Positions 8,355-25,620 of a stretch of 25,620 nt of DNA are shown here, piece by piece. Below the pieces are notes generated by a model. The model did not search any database, was not told the DNA's origin, and saw only the letters and a program-made list of their open reading frames with translations. Source of the stretch: a virus. The DNA lies in IMG/VR virus record IMGVR_UViG_3300027963_000308, positions 1 to 25,620 of that record, one strand, 5' to 3'. The first letter of the stretch is position 1. Every line of letters starts with the position of its first letter. Position numbers and translations under genes: made by a program.

Positions 8355-11300
8355 TTAAGTTGTAGTAATAATAGTTGAAGGTGCTTTCAATTGCGAGGCT
8401 GTAACCGCATCAATAATTTCTATATCAGCAATACCGGCTCCACTGACCAATAGTTCATTAGACAAACAACTGACTTCATACAGGCTGCCAAACCCTGTGT
8501 CTGTTTTAGGAACTAACACAAAATTGGTAATATCTGGGGTTAGATTATTCATAACGTATGTAGACAATTCACTGAAATAAAATGTTTGGCCAAACTCCCA
8601 ATTTTCTAAAGCAAAAAACTCACTAATAGCCGTTAATATTCTAGTTTTTAAATTATTGTCATTGGTAATTTTATTAGCATTTCTAACTGCCTTAAATGTA
8701 CCTTGTAAAGATGCAGATGATTTTTCTCCAAATAGAACCTTATATTTCACAGGATGATAAACAATTTCGTCACTAATGGCTTTGATATTGTTTAAAAATT
8801 CACTGTAATTTTGTTCTAGACTCTGACTAGTCGGTGCCAACGGCTCTGTTTCTGTATTACCAATTAACCAACTTCTATAACTGGTATCGTATCCTGTGGT
8901 TAACACATAGATGTCAATAATATTAGATTTGCTGGGATCAATTCTTCTTTGATCTCCACTGTTATGCACATAATGGAACTTGAGATCGGATCTGCCACTT
9001 TTGCCTATATACTGATCAGTATAGATCAAACTGGCTGTAGCTGTGGCCCAATATTTGACCACATCTAAAGAACTATCGTAGAAATAAAACAACTGATTAT
9101 CAATTTTCAATTCACTAGTCACACTTTGTTCATTGAGCAAAGGCACAATATCATCTCTAGTTAAAGAGTAATTTAAACCATCGGATGTTTTTTTGAAATA
9201 GACATATTCACTGCCGACTACTTCATCAAAAGAATTAGGATTAGTGATCCTTCCCGAATTATTATAATCGTAAAAACTGACTGTAACTCGTTTAGGATCA
9301 ACATATCCATCAGACTCAACAATCACTCCGTCAATTTGCCAATTATGATCACTACCAATAGTGGCCGTAGCCGTAGATATTGCCGAAGGAACTGTGTTAA
9401 TAGACAATATGTCGATCTTGTCTTTAATCACAGTGTTGCTGGTAAAGTCATAATTTACAGAAGTCTTGTCAACATAAAAAGCTGTTTCTTGTTCGCTTTC
9501 AAAAATATAATTTAATATTCTAGATCTAACTTTGTAATACTTGCCAGTCCACGTAAATGACACTAACCAACTGGTATCTAAACCTTGATCTTCAAGATTA
9601 TTTTGATATGCCAACCCAAAATTATCAACAGTGTTTAAATTAGTGTTGGTAATAATGATCCATTCTCTTGTTTCTGTGTCTATAGTCAGTCCGAAATTTT
9701 TATAGGTCATGCATATGTTGGCAATTTCAGTCTCGATAGGATAACCTAAAAGATCAACATATCTGCATAAAATTTCTGTAGCAATAGCATCACTAGGAAC
9801 CCTAGTACCAAGGATAACAGGACCGGTTCCGTCGTCCAATAATCCTGCTCCATTATTAATTACTTGACTAACCGGAGCCCAAATAAACAAAGATCCTGAC
9901 CCAGGTAAGCCAGAAGCTGGTAAAGTTTTAATATTATTTTTGCTATCAAAATACTTGCCTGCAGGAGCAGTAAATTTAATTAAAGCACCCGGAGTTGCAT
10001 AACGAAGATTAGTGTCAGTATATATAGGTCCAACTGCAAAAGTACCATTGGCATTATAAAAATAACCTCTGCTTTGACCAGGAGTTTTATTAACTTCCTT
10101 CCATGTTAATGCTAAACTAGTTAACTCAGGTCTAATGTAATTTTCAAAATAAAATGAGCGAAGTCCTGTACTATTAACTATTGGAGCAATTGAATTTTTA
10201 ATTACTGCCAATACTTGATTTCTGCTGGTAAAATCAAATTCAAATATATTCTCACTGGCATCTTTATAAAGAATACCATCTGTGGCAAAAATATTTGTTT
10301 TACTGTATTTGCCAGTAACATCACTGAGATCAAAATATTTGCTGATGCCACTAGACACTCGATTTACACTTTTAACTTTTAAAATATCAGACCCAGCATT
10401 TAAAGGTGCTATATTATAGTCCTCTCCGGTGATCATTCTATTTTGAGTATAATAAGTCTGGGGTGCTTTGTTTTGTATAGCAGCATTTGATTCAGTACCA
10501 GCACTGTTACTGATTGAATACTGCAAACTCAATGTCATTTGTAAAGTATGAGTTTGTCCAGAAGCATTGGCATAGGGAATAGATATAACAACGCCGCTTA
10601 ACTGATCAGGTTTGATAATGTAGGTTAATCCGTTACTCTGCCTATAAAATAATCTAAATTCGCCTTTAGGTAAATCACCGAAAACTCCATCTGCAAAATT
10701 TAAATCAATTTGATCGTTAGCCCTCGAACTTACTGAATATACAGATCTTATGCTTTTATTAAGACTGTTATAGATAATGTTATTGCCAACTAATGAAGGA
10801 ATCTGTGTCCACAAAGTATCATAATTGCCTTGCTTGTTTAATTGCCATAACCATACATCTGTATTATTAATGTCTGGGGTATTGACTCCAATGATTTCGT
10901 TAGGGACAGGATTAGTGACACTGAAATTTGAAACAGTTAATGTTCCCTGTCTAAAATGTGTGAAAAACCCGGTATTAGCACTGCCTGCACCTTGAAGATC
11001 ATCTTTGTAGAGAAAACTAAAAGTATTACCAGGAACAGGGGCTTCTTCATAAATGTAGTCTTTGCCTGAAAATGTACAAGGTACAATCTCAAACGACATG
11101 TTGCTGCCATTGATCGTCTTGGCAAAATTAAAAATAGACACATCTTGATTTACACTGTTTACTCTATATTGCTCAGTGGTAATTCCGTCAATGGTTTTCT
11201 TAGCAGATGATTTTCCAAAATAGGTAGTCATTGCCGAGTTCATGATATTGATGAACTGCTGATACCAGTCCGGATTAGTGGAGTCGTTCCAAAGGATAGT

Positions 11301-24063: not shown

Positions 24064-24489
24064 ATGACCTGGACCTACCAAGGTACGGTCGTTGATCAAT
24101 TACCTGAGGATTGTATTGGTTATGTTTATATCATAACTAATCTTCTCTCAGGCAGGAAATATGTTGGTAAAAAATTGGCCAAGTTCAGTAGAACTACATA
24201 TAAAACAGTAAAATTAAAAAACGGCACTAAGAAGAAGAAACGAATCAGAAGTAAAATAGACAGTGACTGGCAAGAGTATTGGGGCAGCAGCCCCAATCTA
24301 CAGGCAGATATAGAAAAATTAGGCAAAGAAAATTTCACAAGGCAAATACTACATTACTGTAAATCTAAGGCAGAAACCAGTTACATCGAGGCAAGAACAC
24401 AGTTTGAACTGAAAGTATTAGAATCAGACGAATACTACAACGGCATCATAAACTGCCGTATCCATGGCTCCCATATACTGAAAAAATAG
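24064..24489 (+). CDS. GIY-YIG family endonuclease
   Basis: 141 residues. The GIY half is GYVYIITN (19-26) and the YIG half is KYVGKK (32-37); a basic stretch (KNGTKKKKRIRSK, about 52-64) with candidate catalytic Arg, then SDWQEYWGSS (67-76), LGKENFTRQIL (86-96) and a candidate metal-binding Glu, E109 (SYIEART). The protein is essentially only the catalytic domain plus a short C-terminus (NCRIHGSHILKK), with no visible separate DNA-recognition domain, so it may be a repair or host-DNA nuclease rather than a homing enzyme. It starts 3 bases after the previous stop without a clear Shine-Dalgarno. It lies directly 5' of the structured non-coding region. Confidence 0.88.
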   Translation: MTWTYQGTVVDQLPEDCIGYVYIITNLLSGRKYVGKKLAKFSRTTYKTVKLKNGTKKKKRIRSKIDSDWQEYWGSSPNLQADIEKLGKENFTRQILHYCKSKAETSYIEARTQFELKVLESDEYYNGIINCRIHGSHILKK

Positions 24490-24942
24490 GCACAACACGC
24501 GGTAACTAAGGCTTGCACTGGCCAACTTCAAGTGCCCTAAACCTGGACATCGGTGTCTCAGGGACGGAAATCTCTCGCCGCTGAGAGTGCTCAACCACTA
24601 TCCTTTACAGGACGAAGATCGCAAACTCGCCGCGATTTGGTTGTTTGAAGTAAGAGAAAAGGCCAAAAGAAGGGAGAAAAACCCTAGGCATACCAGTATG
24701 TTAGTGTATATTGTTATGCTGCCGTCATATCGAAGACGGGGCTCGAGGTACCGGATGACCGCCTCTGTAATGCCCTAGCACTAAGTGAACATAAGAACTC
24801 GGATAATGTTCAACAATCTTCGCCCTGTGTGGGCGAAGTGTGACCAATGAATCTGGATAATACGTAAAACCTTTTCAGTTCTCTTCGAAGAAGACCATAT
24901 GCTTCGAGCGACTAGCGAAGAGGCAAGCGAACGCAGTTCGCT
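24490..24942 (+). ncRNA. Candidate large structured RNA (unassigned class)
   Basis: About 450 bases with no convincing gene, higher G+C than its neighbours, and many compact inverted repeats. Read on the plus strand: GCACT/AGTGC (24515-24519 with 24531-24535); CCTGGACA closed by TCGG (24542-24562, one bulged T); CTCTC/GAGAG (24572-24576 with 24583-24587); a three-way junction closed by CAACCA (24592-24597) and TGGTTG (24638-24643) enclosing TCCT-TTAC-AGGA (24601-24612) and ATCGC/GCGAT (24618-24636); a long stem CTAGGCAT (24684-24691) with ATGCC(C)TAG (24770-24778) enclosing CCGTC/GACGG (24722-24739) and GAGG..CGG-ATGA-CCG..CCTC (24745-24765); GAACAT/ATGTTC (24787-24811); CTTCGCCC/GGGCGAAG (24818-24838); CTCTTCG/CGAAGAG (24881-24922); GCGAAC-GCA-GTTCGC (24927-24941). 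Strand, ends and class are inferred. The last two hairpins could belong to the next gene's leader. Confidence 0.6.
24818..24838 (+). other. GC-rich 8-bp hairpin within the structured region
   Basis: CTTCGCCC (24818-24825), loop TGTGT, GGGCGAAG (24831-24838). It is the strongest local stem in the non-coding stretch. It is not followed by a T-run (next bases TGTGACC), so it does not look like an intrinsic terminator; more likely a structural arm. Confidence 0.7.
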
Positions 24943-24950
24943 ACTAAATA
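24943..24950 (+). promoter_or_regulatory. Possible late-promoter-like box before the last gene
   Basis: ACTAAATA matches the TATAAATA late box at six of eight positions and lies 20 bases before the ATG at 24971, a spacing similar to the gp6 late promoter. It follows the hairpin at 24927-24941. Weak match, so only a candidate. Confidence 0.3.
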
Positions 24951-24970
24951 GTAAATTATTAGAAATACCA

Positions 24971-25620
24971 ATGAGTCTTCAAACCTTAATATCAAAATTA
25001 GATGCTATCGAAAACTCACCTAGAATCAGTGTGTTTGAAAGTATTGGTCAAGGTGATATTTATTTTCGTACATGGGAAAAAGAAATACACCCGACATTGT
25101 GTGAGGTAGCTCTACAACCCGATCAGATACAACAATTATTTAAAAGCATAGAAACAGGTGCTGGCCGCAGTATGTTAGGCAAAGCAGGTGATGCAATCAA
25201 AGGTGCTGGCAATAAAATTAGTGATGTATGGTTTAATAAGTTTGGAGGTATGCTACAGAACAGTGGCCCAGTTCAAGCATTTGATCAAAAGTGGGAAGAA
25301 ATTAAATCATCTGTTGCTAAGAAAAATCCCGAGTTGGCTGCAAAATTGGCCAAGTACGGTGAGTTTGCTAAGAACAATCCTAATCTACATAAATTCTTGT
25401 TGGCCATTGCAGGTTCAGCCGCAGCCGCATTAGGTGTGGCTGTAGCGGGTGGTGTTGGAGCAGGTGCATTAGCTGTTGGTACAGGTACAGGTGTTGCTGT
25501 AGGCATACTAAACATTGCTGATCGTTTGTTACAAGGGCAGAAAGCCAGTACCGCTATCGGACGTGGTGCTACTGTCGGTGCTGTAGCAGGACTAACAGCC
25601 GCCGCACTTTCCAAAATAAA
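24971..25620 (+). CDS. Glycine/alanine-rich, probably membrane-active protein (3' end outside window)
   Basis: An open frame from ATG 24971 to the window edge gives 216 residues. I do not recognise the family. Residues 1-95 are mixed (SLQTLISKLDAIENSPRISV; VALQPDQIQQLFKSIETGAG), 96-140 are charged and helical (KWEEIKSSVAKKNPELAAKL), and about 142-182 and 198-214 are Gly/Ala/Val-rich hydrophobic segments (AGSAAAALGVAVAGGVGAGA; GAVAGLTAAAL) resembling glycine-zipper membrane helices. There is no clear Shine-Dalgarno. The frame is also open upstream to an ATG at 24899, which would add 24 residues; I prefer 24971 because a hairpin and a late-box-like sequence lie between. It may be a virion or internal protein, but this is speculation. 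Confidence 0.72.
   Translation, partial: MSLQTLISKLDAIENSPRISVFESIGQGDIYFRTWEKEIHPTLCEVALQPDQIQQLFKSIETGAGRSMLGKAGDAIKGAGNKISDVWFNKFGGMLQNSGPVQAFDQKWEEIKSSVAKKNPELAAKLAKYGEFAKNNPNLHKFLLAIAGSAAAALGVAVAGGVGAGALAVGTGTGVAVGILNIADRLLQGQKASTAIGRGATVGAVAGLTAAALSKI

Follow-up and report, generated by a model that had tools for sequence, protein, structure and literature searches.

A covarying phage RNA of about 450 nucleotides with twin sequence elements, related to the Polynucleobacter-1 motif

Introduction

Polynucleobacter-1 (RF01718) was listed among structured RNA motifs as probably cis-regulatory (Weinberg et al, 2010; PMC2864571). Other RNAs of similar gross character to the one described below, namely GOLLD, ROOL, and OLE, form homo-oligomers (PMC12286853). 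The window analyzed here, meaning the whole stretch of DNA under study, is IMG/VR virus record IMGVR_UViG_3300027963_000308, complete at 25,620 bases. It carries baseplate hub and wedge genes, a gp55-type late sigma factor, SbcC/SbcD (gp46/47-type) genes, and a SegE-type GIY-YIG nuclease gene, and, judged by this content, it is a fragment of a T4-like phage. An initial annotation, based on the letters and open reading frames only, had proposed that a gene-free stretch behind the nuclease gene encodes a large structured RNA, which it could not assign to any known class. Here, we describe the family to which this RNA belongs, its predicted fold, its genomic settings, and a pair of jointly varying sequence elements within it.

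Results

Boundaries and known part of the RNA

The gene-free stretch is bounded by the stop codon of the GIY-YIG gene (24489) and the ATG at 24971, as the initial annotation had it (Table 1). Its higher G+C content, also pointed out there, is real (about 0.45), but the rise is only modest compared with the mostly 0.32–0.45 found elsewhere in the window. The region had been drawn to 24970, whereas we place the end of the RNA near 24946, where the late promoter starts. A small Hc1 histone-like gene (PF07432; 23833–24060) lies shortly upstream of the nuclease gene. Pfam and PHROG comparison of the glycine-rich downstream gene matched no family.

Among 4227 Rfam families, RF01718 was the sole significant one for 24490–24946. 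It matches 24510–24646 at 122.9 bits (cut-off 37), over model positions 1–141 of 141. No family was matched by the other ~300 nt, so that the description as unassigned holds for this larger part and fails for the 5′ domain, which is known by the initial annotation's own criterion of a confident Rfam hit. The RNA leaves the GOLLD, ROOL, and OLE models unmatched, and the annotation itself had been unable to show a kinship with GOLLD. That it could not match the stretch to a tRNA, tmRNA, or group I intron was borne out by Rfam and ARAGORN, which gave none of these. Thus, only the first third of the ~450-nt RNA had been catalogued before, as Polynucleobacter-1. The RNA is not confined to that 141-nt motif: about 450 nt are conserved, and covarying pairs reach 24942.

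Table 1. Features of the RNA locus in the window (all on the plus strand).
Feature	Coordinates	Description	Basis
GIY-YIG nuclease gene	24064..24489	SegE-type, 141 aa; abuts the 5′ side of the RNA	Pfam PF19835, 110.6 bits
Whole non-coding RNA	24490..24946	~450 nt	Family matches, length, covariation 24499–24942
5′ helix	24499..24502 with 24578..24581	GCGG with CCGC; the latter is the hairpin loop of the Rfam model, from which the helix is absent	24499:24581 covaries, 96% paired (GC/AU/GU/UA; 160 sequences)
5′ domain	24510..24646	Rfam RF01718, Polynucleobacter-1	cmscan, full model
Three-way junction	24593..24642	Closed by CAACCA/UGGUUG	Compensatory changes in RNAalifold
Middle domain	24671..24719	Hairpin 24671–24686 and long hairpin 24689–24719/24720	Covarying pairs 24673:24684, 24693:24714, 24694:24713, 24699:24708
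Pseudoknot candidate	24701..24706 with 24779–24784	Loop UUAGUG with CACUAA	Two covarying pairs, E 0.025 and 0.05, in the 86-sequence alignment only; below the 160-sequence threshold
Pseudoknot	24724..24727 with 24756–24759	GUCA with UGAC	24726:24757 100% paired (UA109/CG51), 19 joint changes, 0 single
Stem	24739..24775	Encloses inner hairpin GAGGUACCGGA..ACCGCCUC	Covarying pairs 24739:24775, 24740:24774, 24741:24773, 24746:24764
R1	24795..24807	GAA-CUC-GGAUAAU; last 7 nt 24801–24807	
Hairpin between twins	24818..24838	CUUCGCCC/GGGCGAAG	Covarying pair 24821:24835
R2	24849..24861	GAA-UCU-GGAUAAU, 54 nt 3′ of R1; last 7 nt 24855–24861	
3′ terminal domain	24902..24943	GAGCGA..AGCGAA stem-loop and last hairpin GCGAACGCAGUUCGC	Covarying pairs 24904:24921, 24926:24942, 24928:24940, 24930:24938, 24931:24937
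Late-promoter core	24944..24950	CTAAATA, immediately 3′ of the RNA	
Downstream gene	24971..25618	Glycine-rich; likely start ATG 24971	Frame of listed ORF 24899–25618

Distribution and genomic context in phages

IMG/VR was scanned with four patterns, one of 14 bases, one gapped, and two derived from the central part of the RNA; counts that rest on these scans are lower bounds. A profile search of the loci found in this way identified full-length copies in at least 228 loci. The carriers are T4-like freshwater phages, and each of 20 large phage records (up to 400 kb) contains one copy. In the middle 80% of 160 non-redundant members, the RNA is 433–460 nt long. A search for relatives in cultured phages gave only chance matches of 23 bases.

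Among the matches listed, the GIY-YIG gene lies immediately upstream of the RNA in 210 of 219 phage loci, with conserved residues. In L360, L383, L123, L332, and L013, another gene precedes the RNA; in the first two it possibly encodes an SGNH-hydrolase-like protein, as judged by eye. Homologues of the nuclease are present in hundreds of phages, including cyanophages, and the six of their neighborhoods that we inspected contain no annotated RNA and mostly leave too little space for one.

Evidence for a conserved fold

A protein-coding reading was rejected: across the 160 relatives, each forward frame contains 9–10 stops on average in ~450 nt, and of 996 alignment gaps, just 85 have a length divisible by three. 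No reading frame is conserved; conservation as protein is what the initial annotation had named as speaking against a structured RNA. The folding energy (z = −2.2) is weak evidence taken alone. Covariation was assessed over all column pairs of the 160 non-redundant sequences with a G statistic and average-product correction. The null consisted of 50 alignments that were simulated along the family tree and kept the number of changes in each column, a procedure that imitates R-scape but is not R-scape itself.

Twenty-eight column pairs exceeded every value of the null alignments. These comprise 22 Watson–Crick pairs spread over 24499–24942, four pairs between the twin elements described below, and two that fit neither group, 24601:24613 (two registers of one hairpin) and 24671:24685 (a mixed pair). 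One of the 22, 24570:24588, is paired in only 80% of the sequences, and some covarying pairs are absent from the Rfam model or do not nest with the others. Independently, MAFFT and RNAalifold applied to 50 sequences predicted 75 pairs, 46 of them with compensatory changes. The proposal of a large structured phage RNA is thus upheld by covariation along the whole length, and we consider it very likely that 24490–24946 is structured.

The individual parts of the consensus are given in Table 1. The three-way junction had been recognized at 24592–24643 from inverted repeats, and it contains the covarying pairs 24595:24640, 24596:24639, and 24620:24634. The long-range stem that was thought to close a multibranch domain at 24684–24778 is not part of the consensus, which instead has a hairpin (24689–24720), a stem (24739–24743/24771–24775), and a pseudoknot (24724–24727/24756–24759).

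Twin elements R1 and R2

The last seven nucleotides of R1 and R2 are identical to each other in 159 of the 159 aligned phage sequences that have both elements. All 55 substitutions inferred in these 7-mers are joint: whenever one copy changes on a branch, the other changes there too, and no single-copy change was inferred. Four of the seven positions are variable, with 28, 5, 12, and 10 inferred changes, where chance predicts 3.05, 0.10, 0.54, and 0.37 joint changes, respectively. These counts are based on alignment columns without selection for similar pairs; a wider comparison that includes chromosomal relatives did select similar pairs and is illustrative. The rule is broken by one base in the divergent locus L031, the chromosomal locus L210, and one other locus, all outside the 160-sequence set. 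The triplets that precede the 7-mers are invariant and always different (CTC in R1, TCT in R2), the two bases to their left covary only partly, and the right flanks have little in common. Gene conversion is unlikely to have caused the identity of the 7-mers, because the fixed CTC/TCT difference sits inside the repeat. To our knowledge, there is no precedent for two 7-mers that vary in perfect step.

The simplest explanation for the joint changes would be one partner that recognizes both twins. A 13-mer scan of four near-complete genomes revealed no third copy or complement beyond chance, and sites identical or complementary to the 7-mers occurred at chance level in the RNA and contigs, with the 7-mers of other contigs as control. 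Across orthologues from eight large phage genomes, no twin-matching site rose above chance relative to shuffled guides.

The reading that we prefer, to which we give about an even chance, is a free-standing, trans-acting phage RNA with two equal binding sites for one partner. The single-copy RNA of ~450 nt would act in trans as a scaffold, and in R1 and R2 one kind of partner would meet two copies of the 7-nt sequence; this partner would be either a host or foreign nucleic acid that pairs with both copies or a dimeric protein. The invariant CUC and UCU triplets would give each copy a slightly different structural context, and the RNA would probably be made before the late stage, along with the GIY-YIG gene. 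Folding predictions give the twins no more than average accessibility, which counts against two binding sites, and any named partner would be speculative. Joint variation makes the search for it concrete, as the partner is expected to change along with the 7-mer.

Possible, though rather doubtful, is that the RNA assembles with copies of itself, as GOLLD, ROOL, and OLE do, and that the twins are equivalent contact points. The RNA is similar to these in being large, pseudoknotted, phage-borne, and devoid of an obvious protein partner, but their Rfam models do not match it. Moreover, pairing of the twins between copies needs a complement, of which the RNA contains none (0 observed, 2.3 expected; 110 against 112 when G–U pairs are allowed).

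It appears unlikely that this is a guide RNA whose two 7-mers base-pair with one common target, DNA or RNA, and lead a nuclease to it, a role that the neighboring GIY-YIG protein could perhaps fill. Two short sequences that vary jointly without exception would fit two guides for one target, and the nuclease, adjacent in most loci, matches a bare nuclease family without a separate DNA-binding domain. However, the searches of the phages' own genomes found no target, seven bases give little specificity, and the inspected phages with GIY-YIG homologues have no such RNA adjacent. Nor is the linkage obligate: a functional link to the nuclease is not required, because its gene is missing from nine of the 219 phage loci and from the surroundings of the chromosomal RNA copies.

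Some site-specific recombinases require matching overlap sequences between sites, and the twins could accordingly be DNA sites for recombination or protein binding that lie by chance in an RNA gene. We regard this as decidedly improbable, since a fixed 3-nt mismatch precedes the matched 7-mer, the right flanks share little, and no integrase gene was noticed adjoining the phage copies.

Transcription and the downstream gene

The T4-type late promoter has the consensus TATAAATA. Upstream of ORFs in five near-complete relatives, no other hexamer is nearly as enriched as TAAATA (10–15×), as expected of such a promoter. Among the matches listed, it lies between +400 and +520 relative to the RNA, behind the last hairpin and ahead of the next gene, in 124 of 220 loci, and it is almost absent from the 500 nt preceding the RNA. 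By promoter position, the RNA is thus unlikely to lie in the 5′ UTR of the downstream gene; probably it is co-transcribed with the GIY-YIG gene or else made from an early or middle promoter. That the RNA is a cis-acting leader or riboswitch, in line with the earlier listing of Polynucleobacter-1, is highly improbable, because the late promoter of the next gene follows the RNA in these 124 loci and the genes 3′ of it differ between loci in size, strand, and kind.

Chromosomal relatives and DUF6641

In the genome collection, the Polynucleobacter-1 5′ domain was also found in Burkholderiales genomes, including Limnohabitans sp. Bal53. Compared with the phage RNA, the chromosomal RNA is longer and has a different middle domain, but twins are present and the 3′ end resembles the phage 3′ domain; among the chromosomal loci, it is the full-length copies that have both the twin 7-mers and this 3′ end. 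The 7-mers differ from those of phages (AGCGAAA, ATCGAAA, ACAAAAG, and GGCGAAA), and the twin rule still holds; in L217, for example, the twins are GAACTCAGCGAAAG and GAATCTAGCGAAAA. The chromosomal form was not found in 300 further genomes of the Limnohabitans family or in phage and plasmid records, and an IMG/VR pattern scan for it gave no match. Two copies (L212 and L225) are truncated, one of them beside ordinary bacterial genes, which suggests a decaying mobile element.

The chromosomal RNA and a DUF6641 gene (PF20346, phrog_31551) stand head to head, and the RNA usually has TAAATA in front of it; loci with both RNA and gene are L447, L454, L465, L467, L209, L210, L217, L219–L222, L224, and L440. 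In the last of these, a phage-integrase-family gene (8420–9451) adjoins DUF6641 and the RNA copy. Of 399 genomes from the order Burkholderiales, 17 carry DUF6641, with up to four genes per genome. Within 200 bases of DUF6641, TAAATA directed away from the gene was found in 23 of 30 loci, which are related to each other and not independent cases, compared with 8.6% of control windows; it stands ~50–170 nt upstream of the DUF6641 starts (L446–L471).

What follows this motif differs between loci: the RNA described above, a small ORF, or another RNA that looks structured and resembles it at the 3′ end. In L450, L453, L461, and L471, the promoter is followed by an ORF of ~100–130 aa and then by a different, apparently structured RNA, which has the same kind of 3′ end (GUGAUGAGCGA..AGCGAAAUCAC and a hairpin) and no Rfam match. 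Another divergent RNA, in L468 and L470, contains the twin-like sequences CCTCGGTGAAAG / TCCTAGTGAAAG and CCTCAGCGATG / TCCTAGCGATG. The literature on DUF6641 and on phage-satellite RNAs yielded nothing relevant.

From the promoter motif alone, we infer that the DUF6641 loci may be elements that respond to T4-like infection. The position of chromosomal relatives behind phage-type late promoters suggests that the RNA is used by both sides of a phage–host or phage–satellite conflict. Tentatively, it could be a two-site RNA of a new kind, with a chromosomal copy switched on by phage infection, and a tool or weapon shared by phages and resident elements.

Comparison with known systems

The whole Polynucleobacter-1 model aligns to the window RNA, outside of which the latter adds a 5′ helix to the hairpin loop, the middle domain, the twins, and the 3′ domain. 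A catalogue entry of 141 nt thereby becomes a complete RNA of ~450 nt, which has a supported fold and is carried by hundreds of phage contigs. GOLLD and ROOL are likewise large, pseudoknotted, and phage-borne, but GOLLD often exceeds 800 nt (PMC12286853) and is thus longer than the RNA described here. In a further difference from both, ARAGORN found no tRNA genes in the window. Guide RNAs of the OMEGA/HEARO type are structured RNAs next to a small nuclease gene, as in the window. Their nucleases are of the HNH or RuvC type and they carry one guide, whereas the RNA of the T4-like phages matches no such Rfam model, lies beside a GIY-YIG nuclease, and contains twin elements, for which the searched phage genomes gave no target.
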